DNA from: Nitrospirota bacterium
GTDB lineage: Bacteria; Nitrospirota; Thermodesulfovibrionia; Thermodesulfovibrionales; Dissulfurispiraceae
Assembly (NCBI GenBank): GCA_040752355.1
Contig: JBFMHE010000004.1
Coordinates: 1 to 64,000, forward strand
DNA: 64,000 nucleotides
Direction of reading: 5' to 3'
The notes beneath the pieces were generated by a model that saw nothing but the letters and a program-made list of their open reading frames with translations, searched no databases and was not told the origin of the DNA. Positions 2,835-23,076 of the stretch are shown here, piece after piece. Position numbers and translations under genes: made by a program. The stretch's first letter is position 1, and every line of letters starts with the position of its first letter.

Positions 2835-3824
<990 letters not shown>

Positions 3825-4012
3825 CACAACCTCCTGCTCGGATTAGTTTTCCTTAGGGCACACACCAGTACAGGCACGCTCATTACATAATGTTACGCGT
3901 ATGCTCTCACCTCCCTGTTCCGTCCCTTGCATCACGCGTACTGCGGAACTCCTTTTCTCACTGCCCATTACTCCTATGCAGGCTCCGGAGCCGCAGCACC
4001 TTGTGTTCATTA

Positions 4013-4067
4013 AGCATAGACGAGCGATGTTACGCGCGTATTAACGGAATGTTACATTTGCGCAACA
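4013..4067 (-). promoter_or_regulatory. PhoB-box promoter of the pst operon
   Basis: On the minus strand three clear 11-bp direct repeats begin TGTAAC, GTTAAT and CGTAAC (4046-4056, 4035-4045, 4024-4034), with a degenerate fourth (TGTTGC) at 4057-4067. A -10 hexamer TATGCT lies at 4013-4018, 5 bp after the last repeat. This is the spacing expected when PhoB replaces the -35 contact. The transcript would have a leader of about 180 bases before pstS. The same arrangement recurs at eight other promoters in this window. Confidence 0.8.
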
Positions 4068-4145: not shown

Positions 4146-5726
4146 TCAGTTTCCCGAAGATGAAGGGGAACAGACCACCGGTCTCTTTAAGATCGCCTTG
4201 AGCGGAGACACGAGCGTCATACCCGCAGCGTCGGTCATGGCGTGGAAGAGCTGGGTATTGTCGATGATCGTGGTGCAGGGATACCACGCACCCTCATATT
4301 CCTTCAGATGACGGGCGCCGTTGCCCTTCGCGTAGACGGTGACCAGCTCGTTGGTATGGCTGCCGGTCCCGTAGCTCACCTCGTCATCCGGATACAGATA
4401 GGTCCCGCAGTAAGAGCCCGAGGGGCAGACGTATCCGGCAGGCTTGACAACCTGGGCGGGGAGATCTCCCGGTTCGAGCCGCGCTGCATTATTGAGCCTC
4501 ATGTAGCTGTTCCCGTGATCCGACGTTACGAGGAGCAGCGTGTTGGACCAGTCGATGTCATCGCCGGGACGCTCGACGAACTGCAGGGCAGCCTTCACCG
4601 CCTCGTGCAGGTCCCACGTGGTCCCGATCATCCATGCATAGTCATTCGCATGGTTCGCCCAGTCGATATCACCCTGCTCGATCATCACGAAAAAGCCGTC
4701 TTCGTCGCTGCTCAGCACCTCGAGCGCGGCGAGCGTCGCATCCTTCAGGAGAGGGTTCTCGACGGTAGCCCTGTTCACCTGCGGCATGCCGGGCATGTCG
4801 GCAGGGACCGGGGGCTCGAAATTACCGCCGCTGCCGCCGAAGAGCCCGAAGAGCTTCTTGTTGAGGCTTTTCGCAGTCTCGGCAGCGATCAGGAGCGAGG
4901 CGCCGCCGTCCTTTCCCGCCTCTCTCTCGACAAAAACATACTCGCCGAGAGCGCTGTTCTTCGCATCGTTATAGAGTATCTCGGACAGGTAGCTGGTGCT
5001 GAAGCTCCGGTGGCCGCCGCCGATCACGACCTCGGGTCTCACCGTCCTTATGATCTCGTCGGCTATAGCATAGTAGTTGTTGCGGCTCGGGTTATGGCTG
5101 ACGAAGGCGGCAGGAGTCGCATGGGAGAACGGCACGGTGCTGACCACGCCGATGGCGAATCCCTTTTCCTCTCGCAGCCGTTCGGCAATGGTCTTGAGCG
5201 CTCCGTCGGCCGGATCGGTCCTCCTGCCGGTCGCATCGGGCTCGCCCGCTCTCCAGGCGATATTGCCGTCCACGGTCTTGTGGCCGGTAGCGAGCGCCGT
5301 GCCGGCCGATGCCGAATCCGTCGCAAACCGCGGGTTCAGGAAATAACCGTCATCGATCCTCGAGCGGTCGAGAGGGAAAGGCCTCTTTCCCCCCCGGTTG
5401 GGGTTATAGCCGAGACCCGGCACGAGCGCTGAAGGAGTATAGAGCGATGCTCCCTCGACGTTGGCATACCCGTCGTAAGTGCTCACGTCCCAGGTGGTTG
5501 CGTGCCCCCTGTACGGCAGGCGGTGAAACGCAAGGCCGTAGTCAGAGCCGTAGAGATACCTGCTCGTAGCGATCTCGTGCTCGAGCTGCATGCCGTCGCC
5601 GATAAAAAGGATGATATGCTTTACCGCGGGCTTTTCTTTCGCGATGCTGTGACCGGCGCCTCCAACAAGGGCGACCACCGCCATGAGCGCCGCGACTGCA
5701 GCTGCCATTACATTACGCTTCCTCAT
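4146..5726 (-). CDS. phoA: Secreted alkaline phosphatase (PhoA family)
   Basis: A 526-residue alkaline phosphatase of the PhoA superfamily that releases phosphate from organic monoesters outside the cytoplasm. Visible landmarks are the metal site LFIGDGMQ, the serine nucleophile region DSASAGTALATG, the metal ligands EQGDIDWANHAND and the TSDHGN motif. The N-terminus is a signal peptide (MRKRN then a long Ala/Val-rich helix ending near AKEKP). ATG at 5726 is 5 bases after AGGAGG-ACATG; the frame stays open to 5792 without a ribosome site. A PhoB box and -10 lie about 145 bases upstream. It could be called a generic PhoA-type phosphatase; the Pho control supports the name. Confidence 0.9.
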   Translation of the reverse strand: MRKRNVMAAAVAALMAVVALVGGAGHSIAKEKPAVKHIILFIGDGMQLEHEIATSRYLYGSDYGLAFHRLPYRGHATTWDVSTYDGYANVEGASLYTPSALVPGLGYNPNRGGKRPFPLDRSRIDDGYFLNPRFATDSASAGTALATGHKTVDGNIAWRAGEPDATGRRTDPADGALKTIAERLREEKGFAIGVVSTVPFSHATPAAFVSHNPSRNNYYAIADEIIRTVRPEVVIGGGHRSFSTSYLSEILYNDAKNSALGEYVFVEREAGKDGGASLLIAAETAKSLNKKLFGLFGGSGGNFEPPVPADMPGMPQVNRATVENPLLKDATLAALEVLSSDEDGFFVMIEQGDIDWANHANDYAWMIGTTWDLHEAVKAALQFVERPGDDIDWSNTLLLVTSDHGNSYMRLNNAARLEPGDLPAQVVKPAGYVCPSGSYCGTYLYPDDEVSYGTGSHTNELVTVYAKGNGARHLKEYEGAWYPCTTIIDNTQLFHAMTDAAGMTLVSPLKAILKRPVVCSPSSSGN

Positions 5727-5869
5727 CATGTCCTCCTTAATTATTACTGCTTTCGGGGTTGCCAGGCAATCCCCGCCCTCATTGCTCGTCACTGCATCCG
5801 CTGCTGGAGAGCATCACCTCCTTTATCAAGACTATGCGTGAACAGCGTGAACTGCGGGTCGATAAGTAA

Positions 5870-5914
5870 AGATTAGCAGGGCAACATTACCGCGGAATGA
5901 CAAGGCGGTTACGT
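5870..5914 (-). promoter_or_regulatory. PhoB-box promoter of the alkaline phosphatase gene
   Basis: Minus strand: three 11-bp direct repeats starting ACGTAAC, TTGTCAT and CGGTAAT at 5904-5914, 5893-5903 and 5882-5892, then a -10 TAATCT at 5870-5875 after a 6-bp gap. The middle repeat, GTCAT, matches the E. coli Pho box core. The predicted leader is about 137 bases. Confidence 0.8.
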
Positions 5915-5919
5915 CCCGT

Positions 5920-6117
5920 TTAAAAAAAGGGACACTTCCTGTACTGTCGGCTCCTGCAGTATTCCGCACGCTGGAAAGGGCTCGGCATATACTCGCGCAT
6001 CCCCGCCCTGCAGGCGCCGGCAGGCGACGTACTGCCCTTCTTCAGATGAGGACAGCGCTCATTCCTCTCCTGATCAGATCGAGCGCATCGTGACCGCTTT
6101 TCCGCAACCGCTATCAT
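5920..6117 (-). CDS. Small four-cysteine protein, family member A (unknown function)
   Basis: A 65-residue protein that I do not recognise by name. The ATG has a good ribosome site (GGAGG, 7 bases). Residues 22-62 follow the pattern CP-x12-C-x17-C-x4-Y-x2-C, the same pattern as two other small genes here (14626-14838 and 14945-15151), with identical C2-C3 and C3-C4 spacing. Four conserved cysteines suggest a bound metal or iron-sulfur cluster; this is inference. It follows an HMA2-domain gene after 37 bases and probably shares its transcript. Its end lies just beside the phosphatase promoter, on the same strand. Confidence 0.6.
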   Translation of the reverse strand: MIAVAEKRSRCARSDQERNERCPHLKKGSTSPAGACRAGMREYMPSPFQRAEYCRSRQYRKCPFF

Positions 6118-8274: not shown

Positions 8275-11200
8275 ATGATGGTTCAGACGCTCCATACCTC
8301 GGTTGCAGGAAGGGCCAGGTTCAAGGTCGACGGCCTCTACCGGTCGCAAGCCCTCAAAGGCCGCCTTGAATCCGGCCTTCTGAGCAAGAAGGGTATCTCC
8401 GCCGCCTCCGCTAATCCGCTCACCGGCAACCTGCTCGTCATCTTCAATTCCGGCAACTCTCCCGAAACGATAGCCGGTCATATCACGCTGCTCGTCTCGG
8501 CGCACGGCAACGGACCGAGAGCGCCGTCGGCGCCGCAGCCCTCTGCCGCCGCTCGTCGCGACCTGTCTCCTGAAGCGGGAGAAGCCGGGAAGCTGCTGTC
8601 GAGCAGGAGGAAGCTCCGCACGCTCGTTGTCCACGCAGAGGAGCAGGAGGCCGAGGCGTGGCATACCTTCTCCTCCGGTGAAGTTGTCCGGCGCTTCTCG
8701 ACCTCGAAGGAGACGGGGCTCTCCCCTGAGGCCGCTTTCGCCCGTCTGAAACGGTACGGCCCGAATGTGCTGCCGGAAGCGGTGCCCCGCTCGGGCCTCT
8801 CCATCCTCCTCGGCCAGTTCACTTCTCTGCCCACGGCGCTCCTGGGCGCCGCTGCGGCGCTCTCGGTCGCCACCGGAGGTGTAGCCGATGCGCTGGTCAT
8901 CGCCGGTGTACTCTCCATCAATGCGACCATCGGCTATCTGACCGAATCGCAGGCCGAAAAAACGATTCACTCTCTGAAGCGGCTCGTCAGGCCCTCGGCC
9001 CTGGTGATTCGCGAGAATGCGTACAAAGAGGTCCCTGCCGAAAATATCGTTGCCGGTGATATTCTCGTGCTCAGGCCCGGAAGTTACGTTGCCGCCGACA
9101 GCAGGCTGATAGAAGCGAACCACCTCAGCGTCGATGAATCGACGCTCACCGGCGAGAGCCTGCCGGTGATCAAGGCAGCGGAAAGGCTCGGCGATCGCAG
9201 CCTCCCCCTCGGCGACAGGGTCAATATGGTGTACAGGGGCACGCTTGTCACCGGAGGCCAGGGCCTGGCAGTGGTGGTCGCCACAGGAAAATTCACCGAG
9301 ATCGGCCAGATCCAGAGTCTCGTGGGAGAGGCGCGTCCGCCGGAAACTCCTCTGGAAAGACAGCTCGACCGTATGGGCGCCCAACTGGTAATGATCGGCG
9401 GCGCTGTCTGCGGTGTCGTCTTCATCATCGGCCTTCTGCGCGGATACGGATTCCTCCAGATGCTCAAGACCTCCATTTCCCTCGCCGTCGCCGCCGTACC
9501 CGAAGGACTGCCGACAGTCGCTACGACCACACTCGCGCTGGGCATACGGACTATGCGTCGCCATAACGTCCTGATACGCCATCTTGAGGCGGTCGAGACC
9601 CTCGGCTCGGTCCAGACAATCTGTCTCGACAAGACCGGGACGATCACCATGAACAGGATGACCGTCGTCAGGGTGCATACCGGTATGAGGCGTATCGAAG
9701 CTGCCGACGGCTCATTCGTCTCGCCGGAAGGCGCGGTCAACCCCTATTCCTCTGAAGAGCTGCTCAGGCTCATCCATGTGGCAGTGCTCTGCAACGAGTC
9801 CGAGATAGAGGTGAAGGACTGCGCCGGCGACGAACCGGCAGGAGGCTGTTTCTTCTCGAGCGGTACCGGCTCCTATCTGCTGCGCGGGTCGCCGACCGAA
9901 ATGGCGCTCATGCATATGGCGCTGAGCGCCGGCGTCGATATCATACAACTGCGAGACAAGCTCCCCCTGGTGAAGGTCACCCATCGCTCCGAGAACCGCA
10001 ACTACATGACGACCTCGCACCGCTTCCTGAACGGCGGTTCCCTCACCGCCCTGAAGGGGAGTCCCAATGAAGTGCTCGCCCTGTGCCGGTGGCATATACG
10101 GGACGGCAAGCGGCTCGAACTGAGCGACGGTGACAGAGAGGCGATCCAGACCGAGAACGAACGCATGGCGGGAGATGCGCTGCGGGTGCTCGGTGTTGCA
10201 TACTCCTATGCGGAGAATGGCAGCGGCACTCCGGACGATGGCCCCATCTCTATCTGGCTCGGTCTCGTCGGCATGGCGGACCCGACGAGAAAAGGAGTCA
10301 GAGCGTTGATGGGCACCTTCCATCGGGCGGGCGTCGAGACCGTCATGATCACGGGCGATCAGAGCCCTACCGCCTATGCCATCGGGAAGGAGCTGGACCT
10401 GAGCAATGGCGGGCAGCTCGAGATCCTCGACTCCACGCATCTCAACAATATCGACCCCGAGGTGATGAAGGCCCTCTGCGAGCGGGTCCATGTCTTCGCC
10501 CGGGTCAGTCCTGCCCATAAGCTCCAGATCGTACAGGCCCTGCAGCGGGCCGGAAAAGTTGTCGCCATGACGGGAGACGGCATCAATGACGGGCCCGCCC
10601 TCAAAGCCGCCGATATCGGCGTAGCCATGGGACATACCGGCACGGATGTGGCCCGCGAAGTGGCCGATGTTGTCCTCGAGGACGACAACCTGGAGACCAT
10701 GATCATCGCGGTCAGCCAGGGGCGCACTATTTACAACAACATCAGGAAATCGGTCCATTTTCTCCTCTCGACCAATCTCAGTGAGATCATGGTGATGTTC
10801 GCCGCCATCGCCGGCGGCATGGGGCAGCCGCTGAATGCGATGCAGCTCCTCTGGATCAATCTCGTTTCCGACATCTTCCCCGGTCTTGCGCTCGCCCTCG
10901 AGCCGCCCGAGCCCGATGTGCTCAGCAAGCCGCCGCGCAACCCGAACGAGCCGATCATGAACAACGCCGATCTGAGGAGGATCGTCTTCGAATCGGCCGT
11001 CATGAGCGCAAGCTCCCTTGGGGCTTACGGATACGGACTCCTGCGCTACAGCCGCGGTCACCAGGCGGGAACGATGGCCTTCATGAGCCTCACCCTGGCC
11101 CAGCTGCTGCATGCCGTGAGCTGCCGCTCCGAGCATCACACCATCTTCGATAAGCGGAAACTGCCGCCGAACCGGATTCTCGACGGCGCACTCGGCCTCT

Positions 11201-11379
11201 CGCTGGGCCTGCAAGGGCTCACCCTGCTCGTTCCCGGTCTGAGGGGGCTGCTGGGGCTCGCTCCGGTCACCATCATCGACGGCGCGATCATCGGCGGCAG
11301 CGCCCTGCTTCCCTTCCTCGTCAATGAATCGACAAAAAAATCAGGATCCGTACACTCCGGGAAAGGCGCCGCACCATGA
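8275..11379 (+). CDS. P2-type cation ATPase with N-terminal HMA2 domain
   Basis: A 1034-residue pump. Residues 1-75 are an HMA2 domain (SVAGRARFKVDGL, SANPLTGNLLVIFN). Then come a linker, a cation ATPase N-domain (TGLSPEAAFARLKRYGPN), the actuator TGES loop (DESTLTGESLPV), the TM4 motif AVPEGLPT typical of P2 (Ca/Mn/Na-K-like) pumps, the phosphorylation site CLDKTGTITMNRM, the hinge MTGDGINDGPALKAADIG and a C-terminal membrane bundle. It lacks the CPx motif, so it is not a copper/zinc P1B pump. The substrate is unknown; calcium, manganese or magnesium are candidates. The stop overlaps the metK-like start as ATGA. Confidence 0.92.
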   Translation: MMVQTLHTSVAGRARFKVDGLYRSQALKGRLESGLLSKKGISAASANPLTGNLLVIFNSGNSPETIAGHITLLVSAHGNGPRAPSAPQPSAAARRDLSPEAGEAGKLLSSRRKLRTLVVHAEEQEAEAWHTFSSGEVVRRFSTSKETGLSPEAAFARLKRYGPNVLPEAVPRSGLSILLGQFTSLPTALLGAAAALSVATGGVADALVIAGVLSINATIGYLTESQAEKTIHSLKRLVRPSALVIRENAYKEVPAENIVAGDILVLRPGSYVAADSRLIEANHLSVDESTLTGESLPVIKAAERLGDRSLPLGDRVNMVYRGTLVTGGQGLAVVVATGKFTEIGQIQSLVGEARPPETPLERQLDRMGAQLVMIGGAVCGVVFIIGLLRGYGFLQMLKTSISLAVAAVPEGLPTVATTTLALGIRTMRRHNVLIRHLEAVETLGSVQTICLDKTGTITMNRMTVVRVHTGMRRIEAADGSFVSPEGAVNPYSSEELLRLIHVAVLCNESEIEVKDCAGDEPAGGCFFSSGTGSYLLRGSPTEMALMHMALSAGVDIIQLRDKLPLVKVTHRSENRNYMTTSHRFLNGGSLTALKGSPNEVLALCRWHIRDGKRLELSDGDREAIQTENERMAGDALRVLGVAYSYAENGSGTPDDGPISIWLGLVGMADPTRKGVRALMGTFHRAGVETVMITGDQSPTAYAIGKELDLSNGGQLEILDSTHLNNIDPEVMKALCERVHVFARVSPAHKLQIVQALQRAGKVVAMTGDGINDGPALKAADIGVAMGHTGTDVAREVADVVLEDDNLETMIIAVSQGRTIYNNIRKSVHFLLSTNLSEIMVMFAAIAGGMGQPLNAMQLLWINLVSDIFPGLALALEPPEPDVLSKPPRNPNEPIMNNADLRRIVFESAVMSASSLGAYGYGLLRYSRGHQAGTMAFMSLTLAQLLHAVSCRSEHHTIFDKRKLPPNRILDGALGLSLGLQGLTLLVPGLRGLLGLAPVTIIDGAIIGGSALLPFLVNESTKKSGSVHSGKGAAP

Positions 11380-12569
11380 AAAAGGACTTCATGTTCACCT
11401 CCGAATCGGTCACTGAGGGACATCCCGATAAGCTCTGCGATCAGATCAGCGATGCCGTCGTCGACCACTTCCTCCAGCAGGACCCCTATTCGCGCGTCAT
11501 TGCGGAGTGCGCGGTCTCGACCTCGATCGTCTTTATCGCGGCGCGCTTCTCCTCTGAAGCGAGCATCGACTTCCCGGCCATCGCCCGGCAGGTGATCAAC
11601 CAGATCGGCTACGATCAGCAGGCATTCAACGGCAAGACCTGCAGCATCCTGACGAGCCTCAAGGAACTGCCCGGCGACGAGCTCTGCTGCTTCGACGAGC
11701 TCGACCTGAGCGATGAGGAGATCGAGCGGATCCCCGCGAGAAACCAGGTGACGGTCTTCGGCTTCGCCTGCACCCAGACGCCCGCCTTCATGCCCCTTCC
11801 CCTCTGGCTTGCGCACAAGCTCGCCCGGAAACTCACCGCGGCCCGGCTCCAGAAGGTGCTGCCCTACCTCGCCCCCGACGGAAAGACGCAGGTCGGCATC
11901 GAGTTCAGGAACCGCAAACCCCACAGGATACACAGCATCACCGTCATCGCCAGCCAGCACCAGGCAGGAGCGCCGGACAGAAAACACCTTGCCGAGGATA
12001 TCAGGGAGGCGATCATCGAGAGCGTTTTTCACGACGAGCCCGTAAAGCCCGATGCCGGCACCCTGATCTTCATCAACCCTGACGGTCCCTTCATCACCGG
12101 AGGACCTGCGGTACACTCGGGACTGACGGGGAGGAAGAACGCCATCGATACCTACGGGGAGTATGCCCGCCAGAGCGGCGCTGCCCTGAGCGGCAAGGAC
12201 CCGCTCCGCATCGACCGCATCGGCGCCTACGCTGCACGGTATGCAGCAAAGAATGTCGTTGCCGCGGGTCTCGCCGAGGAGTGCGAGGTGCAGCTCAGCT
12301 ATTCCATAGGCATCGCCCGGCCGGTAAGCATACAGGTCGAGACGTTCGGCACCGGCGCCGTTGCCGAGGAGCAGATCGCCGATGCCCTGGAGCGCCATTT
12401 CGATTTCCGGCTTGCGGGTATCGTGAGGCAGTTCAACCTTCGCCGCCTGCCCTCCCGCATCAAGGGAGGATTCTATAGAAAGCTCGCCGCTTACGGACAT
12501 ATGGGGAGGATGGATGTCGGCCTGCCGTGGGAGAAGATCGATAAGGCACGGATCCTCTCGAATGGATAA
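11376..12569 (+). CDS. metK: Divergent S-adenosylmethionine synthetase
   Basis: A 397-residue MetK-family protein (ATP + methionine to SAM). It keeps the N-terminal ATP motif TEGHPDKLCDQISDA, and DTYG followed by SGAALSGKDPLRIDR. However, the normally invariant GAGDQG-x-M-F-G-Y-A segment reads PARNQVTVFGFA near residues 120-131, and the glycine-rich loop is less glycine-rich than usual. It could be an altered-specificity or paralogous enzyme. It is translationally coupled (ATGA) to the P-type ATPase, an unusual place for the housekeeping copy. Family assignment is firm; full activity is uncertain. Confidence 0.85.
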   Translation: MKKDFMFTSESVTEGHPDKLCDQISDAVVDHFLQQDPYSRVIAECAVSTSIVFIAARFSSEASIDFPAIARQVINQIGYDQQAFNGKTCSILTSLKELPGDELCCFDELDLSDEEIERIPARNQVTVFGFACTQTPAFMPLPLWLAHKLARKLTAARLQKVLPYLAPDGKTQVGIEFRNRKPHRIHSITVIASQHQAGAPDRKHLAEDIREAIIESVFHDEPVKPDAGTLIFINPDGPFITGGPAVHSGLTGRKNAIDTYGEYARQSGAALSGKDPLRIDRIGAYAARYAAKNVVAAGLAEECEVQLSYSIGIARPVSIQVETFGTGAVAEEQIADALERHFDFRLAGIVRQFNLRRLPSRIKGGFYRKLAAYGHMGRMDVGLPWEKIDKARILSNG

Positions 12570-12595: not shown

Positions 12596-12650
12596 CTTAA
12601 CCGAAATGTCATTCCCTTGTAAAACCCCTGCAACGCGCCTCCGGTAAAGT
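12596..12650 (+). promoter_or_regulatory. PhoB-box promoter of the OlsB-like gene
   Basis: Four 11-bp direct repeats beginning CTTAAC, TGTCAT, TGTAAA and TGCAAC at 12596, 12607, 12618 and 12629. They are followed after 5 bp by the -10 TAAAGT at 12645-12650. The predicted leader to the ATG at 12730 is about 73 bases. It lies in the gap after the metK-like gene, so the acyltransferase has its own starvation promoter. Confidence 0.75.
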
Positions 12651-12729
12651 ACCTCAACGTGAGTAACGGACCGCCGGTTCCCCGGCGCCGGTGCTGTCAC
12701 CACGAAAAAAATTACAGGAGGTACTCGGT

Positions 12730-13524
12730 ATGTACGCTGCACAGCAATCCTGCATACTCCTCAGTCATGATCGTTTCATCGTCAAAATAGCCGAACACTA
12801 CGAAGAGTTTGAGAAAGCCCTCAGGTTGAGGTTCACGGTATTCAACAAGGAGATGGGATGCGGCCTCGACGCCTCCTATGCGACCGGCCTGGATTACGAC
12901 CCGTATGACGACTTCTGCGATCACCTGATCGTCGTTGATAGCCGCACGGATGAGGTCGTGGGGACGTACCGGCTCATGCTGGGCTTCGTCGCCGAGCACA
13001 ACAGGGGCTTCTACTCGGCAAGTGAGTTCGATATCTCTTCGATCGTGAAACTTCCGGGAGAAAAGCTCGAGCTCGGCAGGTCCTGCGTGCACCGCGACTA
13101 TCGCCAGGCGAGTGTGATCAGCCTTCTCTGGGCCGGTATTGCGCGCTATGTGGAGCTGTATAAGGTGCATTATCTCTTCGGCTGCGCCAGTCTCCACACC
13201 AGCGACCCCCGCGAGGTGAGCATGATCTACTCGTACCTGCACGTCTTCCATCGGGCAGACGCTGCATACACCGTGTATCCCTATCAGGCGCTGCGCGGAG
13301 TGCAGCTGACTGCAGTCCCCGATCTCCGGGAAATCTGCAAGAAACTTCCTCCCCTGGTGAAGGGATACCTGCGCCTGGGAGCGCGGCTCTGCGGCACGCC
13401 CGCCCGCGATCCGCACTTCGGGACAACGGACCTCTTTGTCCTCCTCGAGACGGAACGCCTCGTGCAGCGATACAGGCGCCGCTATTTCCCTGAAGCTGCC
13501 GGGGGCCTGTGCCCGGCTTCCTGA
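12730..13524 (+). CDS. OlsB-like N-acyltransferase (ornithine lipid synthesis, putative)
   Basis: A 264-residue GNAT-fold acyltransferase of the OlsB / autoinducer-synthase-like hemolysin family. These enzymes transfer a 3-hydroxyacyl chain from acyl carrier protein to the amino group of ornithine (or a related head group). Visible features are RLRFTVFNKEMG (substrate loop), VVGTYRLM, LELGRSCVHRDYR (the conserved E-x-x-R region) and HYLFGCASL. AGGAGG lies 8 bases before the ATG. A PhoB box lies upstream, fitting the known production of phosphorus-free ornithine lipids under phosphate starvation. The immediately following olsA-like frame is a fragment. Confidence 0.72.
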   Translation: MYAAQQSCILLSHDRFIVKIAEHYEEFEKALRLRFTVFNKEMGCGLDASYATGLDYDPYDDFCDHLIVVDSRTDEVVGTYRLMLGFVAEHNRGFYSASEFDISSIVKLPGEKLELGRSCVHRDYRQASVISLLWAGIARYVELYKVHYLFGCASLHTSDPREVSMIYSYLHVFHRADAAYTVYPYQALRGVQLTAVPDLREICKKLPPLVKGYLRLGARLCGTPARDPHFGTTDLFVLLETERLVQRYRRRYFPEAAGGLCPAS

Positions 13525-13787
13525 GGGCGGTCCGCGTCCTCTTCCTTCTCATTATCACTCTCCTCTCCCTGTTCTGGGGAGCCCTGCTGGCATGCAGCGT
13601 CACTCTCGGCGAGCGGCGCTCCCTCGCTCCCCATCTTTGGCATCTCCTCTCCATCAGGACCATCTCGGTTCGGGGCCATTGCAGCCCGCCCCTTTCCGGA
13701 GCCGCTCCTGACAGAAAAACCCTGACCAGCCTTGCGCACCAGCATGTGGTATCGGGCCTCTCTTCGCTCCAGCGGGAAGTCACCTGA
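13509..13787 (+). pseudogene. Truncated PlsC/OlsA-like acyltransferase remnant
   Basis: A 92-residue frame that overlaps the end of the OlsB-like gene by 16 bases and starts with GTG. Residues 1-60 resemble the N-terminal membrane segment of OlsA/PlsC acyltransferases (FLRAVRVLFLLIITLLSLF, then SIRTISVRG before the usual catalytic block). The expected H-x4-D acyltransferase motif and the remaining 150 or more residues are absent, so the second acylation step is probably not encoded here. It may alternatively be an unrelated short membrane protein. Confidence 0.45.
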
Positions 13788-15230: not shown

Positions 15231-15323
15231 TCATTGCCAGTGCCGGATAATGAGGAGTATGCCGCCGATGAGAATCATGAAAAGAGCGAGGTCTTCATAG
15301 AGTTCCTGGAATGGCTTATTCAT
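15231..15323 (-). CDS. 30-residue single-pass membrane protein coupled to psiE
   Basis: A short frame, MNKPFQELYED followed by one hydrophobic helix (LALFMILIGGILLII) and RHWQ. It overlaps the last 8 bases of psiE, and AAGGAG lies 10 bases before its ATG, so it is well placed for coupled translation. It has a charged N-terminus and a single transmembrane segment, like many stress-induced small membrane proteins. Function unknown; it may be a PsiE partner. Confidence 0.55.
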   Translation of the reverse strand: MNKPFQELYEDLALFMILIGGILLIIRHWQ

Positions 15324-15735
15324 GCGAAAGCTTCTCCTTTGCCTTATCGGGTGAATAGATGATGGCGAGCGTCCTGAGTATCCCCAGCACGAGAATGAGC
15401 GCTGCCAAAGCGACCACCTCCCGTACTCCCATTGCGTGCCGGTATACGGCGATCATGACCTCGCGCAAAAAGAAAACGAGGGCTGCATCGATGATGAAGG
15501 TTATCTTGAGACGGTGCACCTCGAAATACTCGATTATGCTCCTGAGCAGCTCGATGACAACGAACATCGAGAGGAGATTGGTCACCATGAGGTCGAACCC
15601 TGCATGCACGGTCGGGCTGCCGAACACCGCCCGCAGATCGAAGAAGAGTCGCGCCACCCCGATCATGAGCGCGAGAATAACAAAGGGGATCAGCAGCTTG
15701 ATTACCATGTCGACGGCTTTTTTGAACAGGCGCAT
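15316..15735 (-). CDS. psiE: Phosphate-starvation-inducible membrane protein PsiE
   Basis: A 139-residue integral membrane protein of the PsiE family. Four hydrophobic helices are visible (about 11-30, 47-66, 80-98 and 107-128), with FEVHRLKITFIIDAALVF typical of the family. The E. coli homologue is induced by phosphate starvation through PhoB; its molecular role is not settled. Here a PhoB box with -10 TATACT ends 6 bases before the ATG, so the message is predicted to start at or next to the ATG. A second ATG (residue 10) is possible but has no ribosome site. Confidence 0.88.
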   Translation of the reverse strand: MRLFKKAVDMVIKLLIPFVILALMIGVARLFFDLRAVFGSPTVHAGFDLMVTNLLSMFVVIELLRSIIEYFEVHRLKITFIIDAALVFFLREVMIAVYRHAMGVREVVALAALILVLGILRTLAIIYSPDKAKEKLSHE

Positions 15736-15741
15736 GAGTGC

Positions 15742-15785
15742 AGTATAGCGTCGCGATGTTACAGGAGCATTAAGGGCGCATGATA
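15742..15785 (-). promoter_or_regulatory. PhoB-box promoter of psiE
   Basis: Minus strand: 11-bp repeats starting TATCAT, CTTAAT and TGTAAC at 15775-15785, 15764-15774 and 15753-15763, then 5 bp and a -10 TATACT at 15742-15747. Six bases separate the -10 from the psiE ATG, so +1 should fall on the start codon (leaderless message). Confidence 0.8.
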
Positions 15786-15862: not shown

Positions 15863-17074
15863 TTATGCCAGCCTCCCCTTTATCACATCGACAATGCGGT
15901 ACCGCAGGGACCAGAAGCCGGTCTCGGGACAGGGGAAGAGTGCGGAATTCCTGCCGATGCGATACCGGTTGCCCCGCCACACCACCGTCGTGCTCACCAG
16001 CGGCACAAACCAGAGCAGCCCGATAAGAATATCCTTGACGGGAGACAGCATATACAGGAGCGGGCTCGCCAGCTCCGTTCCCGTTCTTCTCGCCAGCGTG
16101 AAATCGCCGAGGATCTTGACCAGCGAGATGAAGAGTGCAACGGAGATGGTCACCCTGGACTGCTCCCACAGGAGCGGCAGGACCGAGAGGAATACGGGAT
16201 TGCCGAGGAGCTCGACGAGGTATTTCGGTCCCCCGATCTTCCAGCGCAGCTTTCCCCATCGCGTGTGGCGGTTGAAAAAACGCTGTACGCTCCAATACTC
16301 ATTGATGTTGTTGATGATGTGCTTCGAGAGCACCACGCGTCTGCCGCTCTTGTGCATGCGTTCACCGATGATATAGTCCTCGGCCAGGATGTCCTTGACC
16401 GCCCTGAGCCCGCCGATCGCTTCGAGGTCGCGCTTCCTCATGAGCATCGATTTGCCGATGACGCACGGCATCTTGAGGAACCTGTCGAGAAAGCAGACAC
16501 TCCCCATAATGAATGAATTGAGGTGCAGATTCTCGAAGACCGCACCCAGCGTGCGTCCCCCCGCTCCCCGTATCACATTGCTCACCAGGCCGACCTGCGG
16601 ATCCCTCAGGGGGCTGACGACCGCCTTCAAGTAGTCTTCCTCGACCATGACGTTGCTGTCGCTTATGAGCACATATTCGTACCGGGCGGCCCTGTATGCC
16701 GCAACCAGGTTATTTACCTTGGGGTTGAGCCCGATCGGCGTCTCCTCGACGATGATCGTGATGTCTTTGCCGGGATTGCGCTCCCTCACCTTCCGGGCAA
16801 CCTTGTAGGCCGGGTCATTGTGATTCTGGAGCGTGAAGATGATCTCGTACTCGGGGTAATCGAGAGCACAGAAGCTCAGGAGATTGTCGAGCAGGTTGTC
16901 GTCAAGCCCCTTTAGAGGCTTCAGTATCGAGATCGGGGGGGAAAAGGGGGAGAGGGAGTTATCCTCCCCCGCGTCACGGGGAGCAGAGAGAGACGAACGT
17001 ACGGCAAGGAGCTGAAAGCCGTATAACACCAGGCCGAAGACTGCAGCGGCAAAAAAGATCCAGTAGGTCTCCAT
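15863..17074 (-). CDS. GT21-type (ceramide glucosyltransferase-like) glycosyltransferase
   Basis: A 403-residue membrane glycosyltransferase. An N-terminal helix is followed by a GT-A domain with SILKPLKGLDDNL, the D1 site SDSNVMV, the EDYIIGE acid motif and the RHTRW version of (Q/R)xxRW, then a C-terminal hydrophobic pair. These mark the ceramide glucosyltransferase family, which includes HpnI of hopanoid synthesis and the Agrobacterium enzyme that makes glycosyl-diacylglycerols under phosphate starvation. It lies 11 bases after a PHP phosphoesterase gene whose promoter has a PhoB box. A role in phosphorus-free glycolipid synthesis is the best inference; HpnI activity is the alternative, but no hopanoid genes are nearby. 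Confidence 0.8.
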   Translation of the reverse strand: METYWIFFAAAVFGLVLYGFQLLAVRSSLSAPRDAGEDNSLSPFSPPISILKPLKGLDDNLLDNLLSFCALDYPEYEIIFTLQNHNDPAYKVARKVRERNPGKDITIIVEETPIGLNPKVNNLVAAYRAARYEYVLISDSNVMVEEDYLKAVVSPLRDPQVGLVSNVIRGAGGRTLGAVFENLHLNSFIMGSVCFLDRFLKMPCVIGKSMLMRKRDLEAIGGLRAVKDILAEDYIIGERMHKSGRRVVLSKHIINNINEYWSVQRFFNRHTRWGKLRWKIGGPKYLVELLGNPVFLSVLPLLWEQSRVTISVALFISLVKILGDFTLARRTGTELASPLLYMLSPVKDILIGLLWFVPLVSTTVVWRGNRYRIGRNSALFPCPETGFWSLRYRIVDVIKGRLA

Positions 17075-17085
17075 TATCCCTCCTT

Positions 17086-17775
17086 TTACTGTCTGAAAAG
17101 GGTTATCGCAACGCCTTTGTTATGCCGTATGCACTGCTTTATCGATGCACTGTTCTTGTCGCAGTTGAGCAGCGTCTTCCACGAGTAGAGATGCCGCACC
17201 TTGTGGAAATCGCTGTTCGCTATATAAGGATATTTCTTCAGGCTGACGACGTTGAACACATCGTCCCTGTTGGCGACCTCCCAGGCATCGATGTACCGGG
17301 CGTATTTGTCCCGGTTGTTCCAGAGGAAAAGTGTATCCCTGCTCAGGTCCGACATATGGTGCGGATGACACGCCACCGTAAGAGCGCCCTGCTGTTTCGC
17401 TTCCAGAAAGATATGCTCGTAACTCATGCAGGCAGGAATGAACTCCTTGATATCGAGGAGCAGGATATGTGCCGATTTCTCCGCCGTCAAATAGTTCTTG
17501 CTTATTTCGACCCCCGGAATGACGAGCATCTCGTATTTATCCCAGGCTCGTGCCGCCGCCCTGTCGATATGTTCCTTATAGCGATCGAAATTGTCGGCAC
17601 GCACGGAGAGATTGAAGCGGCGTGCGAATTTGCCCAGAGAGTTGTCGCCGTTCACCACATGGTCGGTTATTGCGATAACGTCGAATCCTGCCTGCCCATA
17701 GAGATCGATCACCGTATCCAGCGCCACCGAACCGTCGGAATACTTGGTATGGATATGAAAATCACACAGCAGCAT
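17086..17775 (-). CDS. PHP-domain metal-dependent phosphoesterase, Pho-boxed
   Basis: A 229-residue cytoplasmic PHP-fold hydrolase. Metal ligands are visible as DFHIHTKYSDG (residues 5-15), AITDH near residue 36, an IPGVE segment near residue 87, ACHPHH near 134 and NSDFH near 190. PHP enzymes hydrolyse phosphomonoesters or phosphodiesters with a multinuclear metal site. Here it is the first gene of a two-gene operon with a GT21-like glycosyltransferase and has a four-repeat PhoB box. The substrate could be a phospholipid-derived or sugar phosphate; this is inferred from context only. The -10 lies 7 bases before the ATG, so the message is probably leaderless. Confidence 0.85.
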   Translation of the reverse strand: MLLCDFHIHTKYSDGSVALDTVIDLYGQAGFDVIAITDHVVNGDNSLGKFARRFNLSVRADNFDRYKEHIDRAAARAWDKYEMLVIPGVEISKNYLTAEKSAHILLLDIKEFIPACMSYEHIFLEAKQQGALTVACHPHHMSDLSRDTLFLWNNRDKYARYIDAWEVANRDDVFNVVSLKKYPYIANSDFHKVRHLYSWKTLLNCDKNSASIKQCIRHNKGVAITLFRQ

Positions 17776-17782
17776 TACCTAA

Positions 17783-17838
17783 AGAATACGACGGGTACGG
17801 TTACCGCAGTATTAAGGGAGCATTACATTTGCGTTAAG
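17783..17838 (-). promoter_or_regulatory. PhoB-box promoter of the PHP-GT21 operon
   Basis: Minus strand: four 11-bp repeats starting CTTAAC, TGTAAT, CTTAAT and GGTAAC at 17828, 17817, 17806 and 17795 (left coordinates), then 6 bp and a -10 TATTCT at 17783-17788. One of the best arrays in the window. +1 should lie at or one base from the ATG at 17775. Confidence 0.82.
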
Positions 17839-17890
17839 GTTCAGGACGCATCCCGGAGGGGAGTTCCATGAGACAGAGGAGAGGAGATTC

Positions 17891-19168
17891 CTACTCGGTG
17901 CGAGTGTGACAGCACCATTCCCGTATCGCCTCCGACCGGCTCCTGATGAGGTACGAATAGTAGGAAGCGGCGTTGGTGGGCGTGCGTTCGAGTGTTTCGA
18001 AATCGACGTGATAGAGTCCGAAGCGGGCGTCGAGCCCTTCCAGCCATTCATAGTTGTCGATGAGCGTCCAGTAGAAATATCCCCTCACGTCCATGCCGGC
18101 CTTGATGCACTTCTCGAGCACATCGATGTGGTGTCTCATATACCGGATCTTCTCCTGGCAGTCTCTGGTAGCGATGCCGTTTTCCGTTATGATCAAAGGC
18201 ACCTTCAGCTTCGATGCATACCGCAGCACCTTCTCGAGGCCCCGGGGATGGATCTCCCATCCCATGTCGGTCAGCCCGTATCCGTCGATGTCGAGGTGCC
18301 TCAGTTCGATCCCCATCTTCTTGAAGGGATTAAACCTCATATGGATCCTCGTGTAGTAGTTCACGCCGAAAAAGTCGAGCTTATCCTTTATAGGGACCGC
18401 AACACTGACCTCTTTTCTAAACGGCATCCGGATATGCAGGGTGCCGGTCAGAAAGGCGTCGATAAGCGAATGGTTGTAGAAATACTTCGCAATCTTCGCG
18501 AGGACCTTATCGAGCGGATTCCAGCGGCGCCATGGCGAGAGGGCGGCCATATTATGGGCGACGCTCACCAGGGGATCGCCGGCAACCATGGCATGAAGCA
18601 TGTCGTATGCTGCGCCATGGCTGATGAGGATATGCTGCAGCGCCTTCAGGCCAAGGGAAACATCCTTGATGCCCGGCGGCGTACACCCTTCGAAATAGCC
18701 CGCCAGGACGAGGACATACGGTTCATTGAAGGTGATCCAGTAGCGAACCCCTTTTAGCGTTTCGGCAACCTTCTCTACAAAGGCGAGAAACTTTTCAATG
18801 GATGCTTCATGGTGCCAGGGATATTTCTTAAGAAACCACAGGGGATGGGTGAAATGGTGCAGCGTGACCATCGGCTCTATGTTGCTGCCGATGAGGATAT
18901 CTATAATTTCCTGATAATGTGCCAGGGCAGCAGCGTCCCAGGTATTCTCTCGAGGCTGTATCCTGCTCCATTCAACCGAAAACCGGTAGGCATTAACGCC
19001 CAGCTCTTTCAGCAACCGCAAATCCTCCCTGTACCGGCTGAAGTGCTCGGTTACGTTCGGATTCGACGTCAGCTTCTCATCCCACGTGGCCCAGTCGGCA
19101 TAGGGAGATCCCTCGAGCTGAAACGCGGAGGTAGCCACTCCCCATAGAAATCGTTCTTTATCAGTCAT
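17891..19168 (-). CDS. GH1 family glycosidase, Pho-boxed
   Basis: A 425-residue glycoside hydrolase of family 1 (beta-glucosidase/beta-galactosidase type). It has FLWGVATSAFQLEG at the start, the acid/base motif TFNEP, NYYTR and the nucleophile motif ITENG. No signal peptide is seen, so it acts in the cytoplasm or at the inner membrane face. Its promoter holds a four-repeat PhoB box, unusual for a sugar-degrading enzyme. One plant GH1 member (SFR2) remodels galactolipids, so a glycolipid role beside the GT21-like enzyme is possible. A plain beta-glucosidase remains the null hypothesis. Confidence 0.88.
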   Translation of the reverse strand: MTDKERFLWGVATSAFQLEGSPYADWATWDEKLTSNPNVTEHFSRYREDLRLLKELGVNAYRFSVEWSRIQPRENTWDAAALAHYQEIIDILIGSNIEPMVTLHHFTHPLWFLKKYPWHHEASIEKFLAFVEKVAETLKGVRYWITFNEPYVLVLAGYFEGCTPPGIKDVSLGLKALQHILISHGAAYDMLHAMVAGDPLVSVAHNMAALSPWRRWNPLDKVLAKIAKYFYNHSLIDAFLTGTLHIRMPFRKEVSVAVPIKDKLDFFGVNYYTRIHMRFNPFKKMGIELRHLDIDGYGLTDMGWEIHPRGLEKVLRYASKLKVPLIITENGIATRDCQEKIRYMRHHIDVLEKCIKAGMDVRGYFYWTLIDNYEWLEGLDARFGLYHVDFETLERTPTNAASYYSYLIRSRSEAIREWCCHTRTE

Positions 19169-19236: not shown

Positions 19237-19293
19237 ATTGTAAATCGCGCATCATTACCAGGGGATTACAGGGACATTACCTGTCGGTTACAT
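19237..19293 (-). promoter_or_regulatory. PhoB-box promoter of the GH1 gene
   Basis: Minus strand: four 11-bp repeats starting ATGTAAC, AGGTAAT, CTGTAAT and TGGTAAT at 19283-19293, 19272-19282, 19261-19271 and 19250-19260, followed by a -10 TACAAT at 19237-19242. It is divergent from, and 23 bp away from, the phoB box array. Confidence 0.8.
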
Positions 19294-19316: not shown

Positions 19317-19371
19317 TTTAACCTGATCTTAATGTGCGCTTAACATGAATGTAACATTTATTGGTTACTAT
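19317..19371 (+). promoter_or_regulatory. PhoB-box promoter of phoB (autoregulation)
   Basis: Four 11-bp repeats starting TTTAAC, CTTAAT, CTTAAC and TGTAAC at 19317, 19328, 19339 and 19350. After 5 bp comes the -10 TACTAT at 19366-19371 (TATAAA at 19369-19374 overlaps it). The array occupies what would otherwise be the first codons of a longer reading frame from 19345, which argues for the phoB start at 19411. The leader is about 33 bases and has no strong ribosome site. Confidence 0.85.
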
Positions 19372-19410: not shown

Positions 19411-20145
19411 ATGTCAAAAAGCATACTCATTGTCGAGGACGAGACAGATATCGCCGAGCTGGTTGGCTACAACCTCCGGAAAGAGGGTTTTTCCTTTTTT
19501 ATTGCCCCTGACGGTGAGACGGCGTTAAAGGAAATCGGAACCAAGACGTATGATCTGGTCCTCCTGGACCTGATGCTGCCGGGAATGCAGGGCCTCGAGA
19601 TATGCCGGATCATCAAGAGCAGACCCGATAGCGCTCATATACCCATCATTATGCTCACCGCAAAAAGCGAGGAGATCGATAAGATCCTCGGCCTCGAGAT
19701 GGGCGCCGACGACTATGTCACGAAGCCTTTCAGCAGTAAGGAGCTCGTGGCGAGGGTCAAAGCGGTATTGCGGAGGACCGACCGGAAGGACGATGTCGCG
19801 CAAAAGGCGGACAAAAACGCAGGGAGCACCATCCGGGTCGGCGCCATCACCATCGATAAGGAGCGCTATACGGTCACCGTCGAGGGCCGCTCGGTACAGC
19901 TCGGCGTCATCGAATTCAAGCTGCTCGTCTACCTCGCGAAGCGCCCCAACAGGATCTACAATAGAAACCAGCTTCTCGATGCGGTCTGGGGCAACAGCGT
20001 CTACGTAGAGCCCAGAACCGTCGACGTCCACATACGGCGGCTCAGGATGAAGATCGAGAGCGACCCCGATAACCCGAAGTACATCAAGACGATGCGGGGG
20101 CTCGGTTACTTCCTGGAAGTCAAAAATGATGAAGCTGCGGATTGA
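19411..20145 (+). CDS. phoB: Phosphate regulon response regulator PhoB
   Basis: A 244-residue OmpR/PhoB-type response regulator. The receiver domain has the acidic pair E9-D10, the phospho-acceptor D53 in LLDLMLPGMQG, T83 and K105 (DDYVTKPF). The C-terminal winged helix contains RIYNRNQLLDAVWG and YVEPRTVDVHIRRLR, the PhoB/PhoP DNA-recognition signature. Its own promoter carries a four-repeat PhoB box, the expected autoregulation. No phoR histidine kinase follows: the next gene is convergent. It is most likely the regulator of all nine boxed promoters here. Confidence 0.88.
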   Translation: MSKSILIVEDETDIAELVGYNLRKEGFSFFIAPDGETALKEIGTKTYDLVLLDLMLPGMQGLEICRIIKSRPDSAHIPIIMLTAKSEEIDKILGLEMGADDYVTKPFSSKELVARVKAVLRRTDRKDDVAQKADKNAGSTIRVGAITIDKERYTVTVEGRSVQLGVIEFKLLVYLAKRPNRIYNRNQLLDAVWGNSVYVEPRTVDVHIRRLRMKIESDPDNPKYIKTMRGLGYFLEVKNDEAAD

Positions 20146-20988: not shown

Positions 20989-22983
20989 TCAGCAACACGC
21001 CCCCCCTGCCTGTTCCATTCCCCTCTGGCTGCTGCTGAGAGATGTTCCGCAGGCTGCAAACTCTCCGAAATGCTGTGTGAAGTCCCCCCTCACATCGAAA
21101 AACTCTTCGAATCTCGTCCGGGAAAGCATCAATGCCGTATTGCCGCAGACTCTTTCCGGCCTGTCCTTCTCGAAAATATGCGAGCCATCGAGCTCAAAAG
21201 CGAAGGGTGACTCGGAGATGCCGCCCCTATAAATGGCGATATGCCCGTAATCCTCGCAGGCGTCATCCAGCCCCTCAAGCTTCCAGAGGCGGTAGGTAAT
21301 AGAAAAAAACGTTATGTTTCCGGTGAGCTTCTTTACCTCATCGTTGGTTATCGCAACGGTTCTTTTCGACATCATACGCGGGTCGGCAAAGCCCGCCCTT
21401 CGCGCCATTCTCTCGAAATCCCTGTAGTAGAGCGCGCCGCCGAGGCATTCTCCGTAGAGGACCGGGTCTTTTCTGATATGTTCGGGAAGTCTCCGGTCGG
21501 CATAGATATCGGAGAAGTGGAACTCGCCGCCGTACTTCAGCATCTCGTAAATCTGCCCGATCGCTCTCTCCTTGTCTTCGACGAGATTGATGACGCAGTT
21601 CGAAATGACCAGGTCGAGCGTTTCCCTGCCGAAATGCTGCCCCGCATTTTCGATACAGTCGAAGATGAACTCGGTGTTGGGCTCTGTATAGCCGAACCTC
21701 CTCGCCTGATCCTCCCGGTGCTTCCGGGCGACCTCGATCTGCTGCCCGGTCATATCGAGGCCGTACACAAAGCCTTTTTCGCCCACAAGCTTCGAGAGCA
21801 CGTAGCTGTCCCGTCCGGTGCCGCAGCCGAGGTCGAGAACGCTCAGTCCCTCGATCCTCAGCGGTATAGGCGAACCGCACCCGTAGTACTTTGCCTTGAT
21901 CTCGTCGGCGATATAGGGCATCACCTCCCTGACGTGCCCGGGGAGCGCATCGGGGGTACAGCAGGCGGTCGTCTTCAGGTCCGCCGAGGACCGCAGCTCC
22001 CTGCCGTAGTAGTCCCTGACGCTTTCCTTCACGTCAAACTCGGCCTCATCTTTTATAAGCGCACCGTGACAGCTGCTTCCCCTGGTAACCGTGCAGGCGT
22101 AGCAATGTTCGCCGCAGGTTATCTCGGGCTCGAAGTCGTCGAAGTCGATCTCCCAGAACCGCCGGTCCTCGTATCCTTTTATCCTCATGCCGAGAGCAAG
22201 ATTAAAATCGCAATCGTATACATTGCCCCTATAGTCGACCGAAAGCAGGCGCCTGCACATGATGCTGTTCAACGTCTCAGGGTTGAAGTTGTTCACCAGC
22301 AGTTTCATATACTCATCAAAACTTCCCCGCCTCACGAGATAGCGCTTGAACCCTCCTATCGGCGAGTTGGTAATGGTAATAAGGTTGTTGAAGGAGATTC
22401 CGTGCCTCTCCTTGAGCAGCTTCTTGTAGTCGCGTTCCAGGTCAGACGGGGACGGGGGGAGATACCCCCCCTCGGGATTGTATACCAGGTCCAGCACAAG
22501 ACGGCTGTCCACGCCGTAGCCGTTCCTGTTCAATTTATTCAGGACGCTGACGCTCGCATCGAATACTCCTTTCCCGCGCTGTCCGTCAGTCGTCTCCCTG
22601 AAACAGCTGGGCAGCGACGCAATGACCTTTGTACCGCATCTCTTATAAATATCGATGAGAGAACCGTGCTCGGGCATATCGAGGACCGTAAGGTTCGTTC
22701 TGACCACCGTTCGTTTACCACGCCCTCCCAGCTCCTCGATAAACACCCGCAGGCTGGGGTTGAGCTCCGGTGCGCCTCCGGTAAATTCTATCTCGCCGAC
22801 ATCCGTCTCAAGAAGCTTCCGGAGAATATGCCCGGCGGTAGCGGTCTCCATGTTCTTCTTGCCCCGAGGAGATGCCCCGAGGTGACAGTGCGAGCAGCTC
22901 TGGTTGCACCGGTCCCCGAGATTGATCTGAACGACGCTGATCGCCGACTTCCTGATTCTTTCGTTTTCCCACAAAACCGCCAT
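20989..22983 (-). CDS. Radical SAM (ArsS-like) / arsenite methyltransferase (ArsM-like) fusion
   Basis: A 664-residue bifunctional protein. Residues 1-330 form a radical SAM domain with the 4Fe-4S motif CNQSCSHC (26-33), and late cysteines (CGEHCYACTVTRGSSCHG) of the ArsS type, which attaches the deoxyadenosyl group to arsenic. Residues about 355-560 form a methyltransferase with CCTPDALPG, YYGCGSPIP, VLDLGCGTGRD and SNCVINL, as in ArsM. The C-terminus ends in CC. The ATG at 22983 follows GAGGGAGGG; the frame extends upstream to 23034 without a ribosome site. Joining both arsenosugar steps in one chain is the unusual point. It is adjacent to the phosphate regulon, and arsenate enters by phosphate transporters. 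Confidence 0.82.
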   Translation of the reverse strand: MAVLWENERIRKSAISVVQINLGDRCNQSCSHCHLGASPRGKKNMETATAGHILRKLLETDVGEIEFTGGAPELNPSLRVFIEELGGRGKRTVVRTNLTVLDMPEHGSLIDIYKRCGTKVIASLPSCFRETTDGQRGKGVFDASVSVLNKLNRNGYGVDSRLVLDLVYNPEGGYLPPSPSDLERDYKKLLKERHGISFNNLITITNSPIGGFKRYLVRRGSFDEYMKLLVNNFNPETLNSIMCRRLLSVDYRGNVYDCDFNLALGMRIKGYEDRRFWEIDFDDFEPEITCGEHCYACTVTRGSSCHGALIKDEAEFDVKESVRDYYGRELRSSADLKTTACCTPDALPGHVREVMPYIADEIKAKYYGCGSPIPLRIEGLSVLDLGCGTGRDSYVLSKLVGEKGFVYGLDMTGQQIEVARKHREDQARRFGYTEPNTEFIFDCIENAGQHFGRETLDLVISNCVINLVEDKERAIGQIYEMLKYGGEFHFSDIYADRRLPEHIRKDPVLYGECLGGALYYRDFERMARRAGFADPRMMSKRTVAITNDEVKKLTGNITFFSITYRLWKLEGLDDACEDYGHIAIYRGGISESPFAFELDGSHIFEKDRPERVCGNTALMLSRTRFEEFFDVRGDFTQHFGEFAACGTSLSSSQRGMEQAGGACC

Positions 22984-23076
22984 GAACCCTCCCTCTGCAT
23001 TCAAAGTGTGGCTTGCACATAAAAATTCCGTCATGCAGGATCAAGACGACCCGTCCTCTGTTCGCGTCTGCTCCTC

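Follow-up and report, generated by a model that had tools for sequence, protein, structure and literature searches.

A conserved gene set under Pho boxes in Nitrospirota and relatives, probably serving the replacement of phospholipids by glycolipids during phosphate starvation

The region analysed is a window of 64,000 nucleotides from a Nitrospirota bacterium (Thermodesulfovibrionales, Dissulfurispiraceae), comprising positions 1 to 64,000 of the forward strand of contig JBFMHE010000004.1 (assembly GCA_040752355.1). Three genes on the minus strand, specifying a GH1 beta-glycosidase, a PHP-family protein and a GT21-like glycosyltransferase, lie beside a divergent phoB-like gene (Table 1). The PHP and GT21 genes are separated by 11 bp, which is consistent with one operon. 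Genes for pstS, pstC, pstA, a phoA-type alkaline phosphatase, psiE and an olsB-like acyltransferase are found in the same window.

Table 1. Genes and promoter elements of the phosphate-related region; positions refer to the 64,000-nucleotide window
Feature	Position	Strand	Evidence
GT21-type lipid glycosyltransferase (ceramide-glucosyltransferase-like), 403 aa, second gene of the PHP-GT21 operon	15863-17074	-	Glyco_transf_21 (PF13506) 1.5e-49, 168 bits, cut-off 21.7; PDB ceramide glucosyltransferase 26qf 1.6e-43; HpnI model 255.3 bits, cut-off 310; D87, D139, D233 and R269-x-x-R272-W273 invariant; own clade (100/100) apart from HpnI
PHP-family metallophosphoesterase of the TM0559 type, 229 aa, first gene of the operon	17086-17775	-	PHP (PF02811) 6.4e-8; 2anu (TM0559) 4.8e-60; AF2 model pLDDT 86.7, Z 33 to 2anu; candidate metal ligands H7, H9, D14, H39, E90, H103, H137, D189, H191 invariant
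GH1 beta-glycosidase without an evident signal peptide, 425 aa	17891-19168	-	Glyco_hydro_1 (PF00232) 4.7e-84, 283 bits; best PDB match 1vff, 4.6e-88; catalytic N148-E149-P150 and T328-E329-N330-G331 invariant
Pho box of the PHP-GT21 operon, 4 units at 11-bp spacing	17800-17837	-	Score 20/20, 0 in shuffles; box in 31/34 relatives
-10 element TATTCT, 11 bp after the box	17783-17788	-	TATNAT at almost constant spacing in 31 relatives
Pho box of GH1	19254-19291	-	Score 20/20
-10 element TACAAT of GH1, 11 bp after the box	19237-19242	-	Sequence
phoB-like response regulator, divergent from GH1	19411-20145	+	TIGR02154 PhoB 5.9e-80, 268 bits, below the 296 cut-off; YycF model scores similarly
Pho box of phoB	19318-19355	+	Score 20/20
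psiE (phosphate-starvation-inducible E family)	15316-15735	-	PF06146 1.4e-13
Partial three-unit Pho box of psiE, with TATACT 10 bp downstream	15758-15784	-	Score 13/15
olsB-like ornithine N-acyltransferase (phosphorus-free aminolipid)	12691-13524	+	PF13444 5.3e-33; NF052555 8.7e-57, below its cut-off
Weaker Pho box of olsB, with TAAAGT 10 bp downstream	12597-12634	+	Score 17/20
Pho box of pstS (reference promoter)	4029-4066	-	Score 18/20
Pho box of phoA (reference promoter)	5886-5923	-	Score 18/20
pstS, followed by pstC and pstA (1787-2728, 802-1731)	2835-3827	-	PF12849 1.2e-38; BPD_transp_1
phoA-type alkaline phosphatase	4146-5792	-	PF00245 7.4e-40

The original prediction had placed PHP and GT21 in one operon with a four-repeat PhoB box and had given GH1 a four-repeat box of its own, and this observation was confirmed. 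The classical E. coli-type Pho box pattern CTGTCACNNNNCTGTCAC did not stand out (6 found, 3.9 expected). The box found here consists of KTAAY units at 11-bp spacing, and four perfect units precede PHP, GH1 and phoB, the box of GH1 lying just outside the interval 15863 to 19168 that contains the three genes. Weaker versions are located upstream of phoA and pstS. Such direct repeats shared with known Pho genes are indicative of the Pho regulon; binding of PhoB and phosphate-dependent expression were not measured. In 60 first-order Markov shuffles of the window, no match scoring at least 18/20 was obtained. A -10-like hexamer follows the boxes at promoter spacing.

To determine whether this arrangement is conserved, 198 Nitrospirota genomes were searched. 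PHP and this type of GT21 occur in exactly the same 37 genomes (p 5e-41), and GH1 is present in 33 of these (p 1e-29). A Pho box precedes PHP in 31 of 34 loci, compared with 0.9% of random stretches, and GT21 in none of the 34. The box in front of GH1 is mostly particular to the genome analysed here, since only 4 of 28 GH1 genes of relatives have one directly upstream. In two overlapping sets of loci, GT21 was found next to PHP in 30 of 30 and 68 of 71 cases. The order GH1-PHP-GT21 was also detected in Desulfurella and in deltaproteobacterial MAGs, although no clear Pho box was found upstream of the Desulfurella genes. A plasmid search with PHP yielded nothing, and with GT21 only distant hits, some of them annotated as HpnI, were obtained. 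Lack of conservation of the pair elsewhere had been named in advance as an outcome that would speak against the module, and it was not observed.

Comparisons outside these phyla revealed an unexpected arrangement. In Verrucomicrobiota, the same PHP domain is fused to an MGDG-synthase/UgtP-like glycosyltransferase of family GT28, which has a fold different from that of GT21. The fusion was present in all 16 loci checked of the Verrucomicrobiota set. In one lineage a Pho-like box was found in 7 of 7 cases, but in a second lineage with the fusion in 0 of 7. That two unrelated lipid glycosyltransferases share one PHP partner argues, if indirectly, that PHP supplies the lipid acceptor. Four related proteins carry PHP fused to a receiver and histidine kinase, suggesting a sensory or other role for some members.

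The predicted structure of the PHP protein adopts the PHP fold, with TM0559 of Thermotoga maritima (2anu, 43% identity) and 3e38 (Z 20) as neighbors. The nine His, Asp and Glu residues listed in Table 1 are invariant in 24 sequences, their assignment as metal ligands being by analogy; phosphoesterase activity was not assayed. TM0559 is of unknown function as far as could be found: it appears in two papers, neither of which gives a physiological role in its abstract, and its genomic context was not examined. A literature search for PHP domains in connection with glycosyltransferases, diacylglycerol and phosphate starvation gave no paper. The GT21 protein matches the family profile and has the D,D,D,(Q/R)xxRW catalytic motif of the family. 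It is closest in the PDB to ceramide glucosyltransferase, but with only about 150 bits, and sugar transfer to a lipid, whatever the acceptor, was not assayed. GH1 has both catalytic glutamates, E149 and E329. Its closest structure, 1vff, is BGPh of Pyrococcus horikoshii, an archaeal membrane-associated retaining beta-glycosidase with preference for long-alkyl glucosides (PMC4687101), which is not known to belong to a phosphate regulon.

From these analyses it appears more likely than not that the genes constitute a PhoB-controlled membrane-remodelling module. In this view, PhoB would induce PHP-GT21 and GH1 together with pst, phoA, psiE and phoB when phosphate is scarce. The PHP enzyme would act as an intracellular metal-dependent lipid phosphoesterase of the phosphatidate-phosphatase or phospholipase-C type, freeing phosphate and leaving a neutral lipid acceptor, most likely a diradylglycerol (diacyl or dialkyl). 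GT21 would then transfer a sugar from a nucleotide sugar to this acceptor, giving a beta-glycosyl lipid that replaces phospholipid, and GH1, a retaining beta-glycosidase without an evident export signal and with a membrane-associated relative, would trim or transfer the beta-sugar and so tune head-group size. The genes, their promoters, their conservation, the fusions and the intact catalytic residues have been shown, while every substrate and product as well as the order of steps is inferred. None of the three enzymes has been assayed, and characterised PHP enzymes act on soluble or nucleic-acid phosphoesters, not on lipids.

The interpretation given in the original prediction is partly supported; its genomic and regulatory part is strongly supported. 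The precedent it cited holds: Pgt, a glycosyltransferase of Agrobacterium with a Pho box, makes glycosyl-DAG under phosphate limitation (PMC3972451). Its proposals that PHP provides the dephosphorylated acceptor and that GH1 works like the plant galactolipid:galactolipid galactosyltransferase SFR2, also a GH1 enzyme acting on glycolipids, are unproven, as is a diacylglycerol rather than a ceramide acceptor. Neither kinship with SFR2 nor transglycosylation was examined, and BGPh is the better precedent found. The PlcP-Agt and Pgt systems of alphaproteobacteria (PMC3972451, PMC4796936) have genes with Pho boxes and a hydrolase paired with a glycosyltransferase that makes glycosyl-diacylglycerol under phosphate limitation. 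In the module described here a hydrolase and a glycosyltransferase are likewise paired under a Pho box, but the hydrolase is a PHP-fold protein and not PlcP, a GH1 gene is part of the set, and other phyla are involved. PlcP was not searched elsewhere in the genome, and sequences of Pgt, Agt, PlcP and SFR2 were not compared directly.

The main alternative, which is considered unlikely but not negligible, is a glycosphingolipid module, in which GT21 is a true ceramide glycosyltransferase, PHP dephosphorylates a ceramide or sphingoid-base phosphate, and GH1 is a glucosylceramidase-like enzyme. The similarity of GT21 to ceramide glucosyltransferase would fit. The genome harbors a serine palmitoyltransferase (SPT) gene (3a2b, 2.3e-136; NF047600 584 bits, below its cut-off of 640) next to a GNAT-like gene, and this GNAT gene is present in 36 of the 37 PHP genomes. 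Desulfurella has both genes, adjacent to each other. In addition, ceramide glycolipids correlated with Thermodesulfovibrionia among other taxa in phosphate-poor fluids (PMC10667739). That the GNAT protein is a ceramide synthase is not shown, however, and about 38 genomes have its gene without PHP-GT21. Conversely, two genomes with GH1-PHP-GT21 and one with PHP-GT21 show neither the GNAT gene nor an SPT-grade match, but they may be incomplete drafts. The fusion partner in Verrucomicrobiota is of the diacylglycerol type.

Less likely still, PHP could hydrolyse a by-product of glycosyl transfer, such as UDP or UMP, or another soluble phosphoester, thereby relieving inhibition and recovering phosphate. 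Its structural neighbors include the PHP domain of RNase AM and the AMP-binding PHP enzyme 2yb1, and the partnership with two unrelated glycosyltransferases would also be explained. On the other hand, similarity to these nucleotide enzymes is only moderate (Z 13-15 against 33 for 2anu), and most glycosyltransferases have no such partner. A hopanoid or a polysaccharide as the GT21 product, both of which had been set out beforehand as findings that would contradict a glycolipid role, is very unlikely. HpnI is the best NCBIfam model, but its cut-off is not reached and the protein belongs to a separate clade. No squalene-hopene cyclase was detected in this genome, only a partial hit of 44 bits in a frame of 6161 aa. 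A cyclase above the cut-off is present in only 3 of the 37 PHP genomes, whereas HpnI-like genes of several relatives lie on the cyclase contig. A hopanoid role was consequently rejected. The polysaccharide-synthase model PgaC scored only 32 bits, so that exopolysaccharide is disfavoured, but not excluded.

A broader possibility, about as likely to be wrong as right or slightly more so, is that TM0559-type PHP proteins are a new family of intracellular lipid phosphoesterases, unrelated to PlcP, feeding the synthesis of non-phosphorus glycolipids. They would have been paired with a GT21 enzyme in Nitrospirota, Desulfurella and relatives, and fused to a GT28 enzyme in Verrucomicrobiota. The module may make the monoglycosyl diether lipids that dominated a phosphate-poor serpentinite well whose main sequence was of the Thermodesulfovibrionia (PMC10667739).

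Replacement of phospholipids by sugar lipids is a main way by which bacteria survive phosphate shortage, but the enzymes are known mainly from proteobacteria. The analysis provides a short, testable gene set for Nitrospirota and relatives, which are common in groundwater and the subsurface. It links TM0559, a structurally solved but functionally unassigned protein family, to lipid metabolism, to which PHP hydrolases had not been tied, and offers candidate genes for bacterial glycosyl ether lipids of unknown biosynthesis in phosphate-poor serpentinite fluids.

The genes under study are located in a 3.57-Mb genome of the phylum Nitrospirota, as judged from named relatives, and are arranged on the minus strand as listed in the table below, with psiE downstream and phoB divergently oriented upstream. 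The window also contains pstS-pstC-pstA, phoA and an olsB-like gene, and is therefore a phosphate-regulation locus. The overlapping 92-aa ORF following olsB resembles the start of an OlsA-like acyltransferase when inspected by eye, but has no family match. Further along, a radical-SAM ArsS (TIGR04167, above the cut-off) is fused to an arsenite-methyltransferase-like domain and is found next to a VTT membrane protein and a FAD oxidoreductase, which could indicate arsenosugar or arsenolipid synthesis beside the phosphate locus, although no Pho box is present upstream. A P-type ATPase and a MetK-type S-adenosylmethionine synthetase lie near PHP-GT21 both here and in another genome, G497, suggesting a shared larger neighbourhood.

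Location of the genes and gene groups considered in the text
Feature	Position	Strand
GT21-like glycosyltransferase	window 15863-17074	-
PHP protein	window 17086-17775	-
GH1 glycosidase	window 17891-19168	-
olsB-like gene and overlapping 92-aa ORF	window 12691-13787
ArsS fusion	window 20989-23034
P-type ATPase and MetK-type synthetase	window 8275-12569; locus L171 10254-13988
Serine palmitoyltransferase and GNAT-like protein	contig C2 of this genome (G000) 97345-99654; locus L177 8256-10658

The four-repeat boxes on which the original prediction was based are real. Four KTAAY units at exact 11-bp spacing occur perfectly at three places, in front of PHP, GH1 and phoB, and slightly weaker copies precede phoA and pstS, while 60 shuffles of the window gave none. 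Weaker boxes with a correctly spaced -10 element also precede psiE and olsB. Among relatives, 31 of 34 PHP genes have a box scoring at least 18/20 within 150 bp, compared to 0.9% of random stretches. None of 34 GT21 genes has one, as expected if GT21 is transcribed from the PHP promoter, and 4 of 28 GH1 genes have one directly upstream. Binding of PhoB was not tested, but a TATNAT -10 element is located at an almost constant distance after the box, with T, A, A and T conserved in 30, 29, 26 and 29 of 31 sequences, respectively.

Lack of conservation of the PHP-GT21 pair in other genomes would have spoken against the original prediction. However, PHP (69-82% identity) and the matching GT21 (52-68%) were detected in exactly the same 37 of 198 Nitrospirota genomes (Fisher p 5e-41), and GH1 in 33 of these 37 and in three others (p 1e-29). 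Since related genomes are not independent, these p-values only rank the association, and some genomes lacking a gene are fragmented drafts. GT21 follows PHP in 30 of 30 loci of a first set and in 68 of 71 non-Verrucomicrobia loci of a second, overlapping set. Of the three exceptions, one is cut by the contig end (locus L142), and the others are L097 and L134, a second copy in its genome. The neighbourhood often contains phoA, pst genes, a YfcE-like phosphoesterase and response regulator/kinase genes. The YfcE-like metallophosphoesterase (PF12850) is found after GT21 in several relatives (loci L033, L048, L063 and others) and could be a further phosphate-releasing step. In Thermodesulfovibrio-type genomes (loci L050, L055 and L063), EAL and CBS-GGDEF proteins are encoded in a Pho-boxed operon divergent from PHP-GT21, followed by GH1 and pst genes, a possible link of phosphate starvation to cyclic-di-GMP.

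Beyond the phylum, GH1-PHP-GT21 occurs in the same order in Desulfurella acetivorans, next to pstS and near an alkaline phosphatase, and in MAGs labelled Deltaproteobacteria (loci L128, L130, L131) and Syntrophaceae (L118, L126). In the Verrucomicrobiota set, the same PHP domain is the C-terminal part of a protein of about 650-690 aa, the N-terminal part of which is an MGDG-synthase/diglucosyl-DAG-synthase-like GT28 (PF06925 down to 3.6e-25; PDB MGDG synthase 1 at 2.7e-29). This in-frame GT28-PHP arrangement was seen in all nine such loci of a first scan, two of which are cut by contig ends, and in all seven new loci of a second scan. In the first lineage, seven of seven testable loci have a Pho-like box 66-74 bp upstream, whereas 2.6% of random 250-bp stretches reach the lowest of these scores. 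In the second lineage, none of seven has such a box. Four proteins in one sampled phylum (loci L163, L164, L166 and L167; see also L170 and L172-L174) carry a PHP domain of the same family joined to a receiver domain and a histidine kinase beside PhoB/PhoR-like genes, three of them with Pho-like boxes. Two genomes, G497 and G571, also carry the PHP-GT21 pair. A role as lipid hydrolase does not by itself explain this arrangement.

GT21 and GT28 are unrelated folds, but the members concerned here are related to enzymes that glycosylate membrane lipids. One hydrolase family that is an operon partner of the first and a fusion partner of the second is most simply explained if it works on the shared lipid acceptor. 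PHP enzymes are metal-dependent phosphoesterases. The candidate metal ligands are all invariant, and the predicted structure matches TM0559 (Z 33) far better than any other PHP protein. The precedent is the phospholipase PlcP paired with glycosyltransferases such as Agt, and the Pho-boxed Pgt, in phosphate-starved alphaproteobacteria (PMC3972451, PMC4796936). While gene arrangement, boxes and conserved residues are observed, the activity of PHP on a lipid, and with it the originally proposed supply of a dephosphorylated acceptor, is inferred and no activity is shown. In this view, a PHP protein would take the place of PlcP.

A hopanoid product of the glycosyltransferase had also been named in advance as evidence against the prediction. 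The protein scores below the HpnI cut-off, and PHP-associated and HpnI-like GT21s of Nitrospirota form two groups separated by a 100/100 branch. Several HpnI-like genes lie on the same contig as squalene-hopene cyclase, but this genome has no such cyclase and only 3 of 37 PHP genomes do. In GH1, both catalytic glutamates and the surrounding sugar-site residues are invariant. Its best PDB match is 1vff from Pyrococcus horikoshii, described as membrane-associated and preferring glucosides with long alkyl chains (PMC4687101, citing earlier work). Hydrolysis and transfer are not distinguished by the sequence, but GT21 enzymes make beta-linkages and GH1 enzymes act on beta-linkages with retention, so the two are stereochemically compatible.

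The main alternative is a ceramide acceptor. The genome encodes a serine palmitoyltransferase next to a GNAT-like protein without NCBIfam match, a candidate ceramide synthase found in 74 of 198 Nitrospirota genomes. The GNAT gene is present in 36 of the 37 PHP genomes, and Desulfurella has both genes. GT21 could therefore make glycosyl-ceramide. On the other hand, three genomes with the module (G200, G758 and G535) lack the GNAT gene and any SPT-grade match, and the partner in Verrucomicrobiota is of the DAG type. The glycerolipid reading is considered clearly more likely than the ceramide reading, which remains possible. An environmental observation may also be relevant. In a phosphate-poor serpentinite well, the predominant sequence of which was of the Thermodesulfovibrionia, 93% of intact polar lipids were two monoglycosyl diether glycerolipids (PMC10667739). 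By a link that consists of correlation plus inference, the module described here is a candidate source of these lipids.
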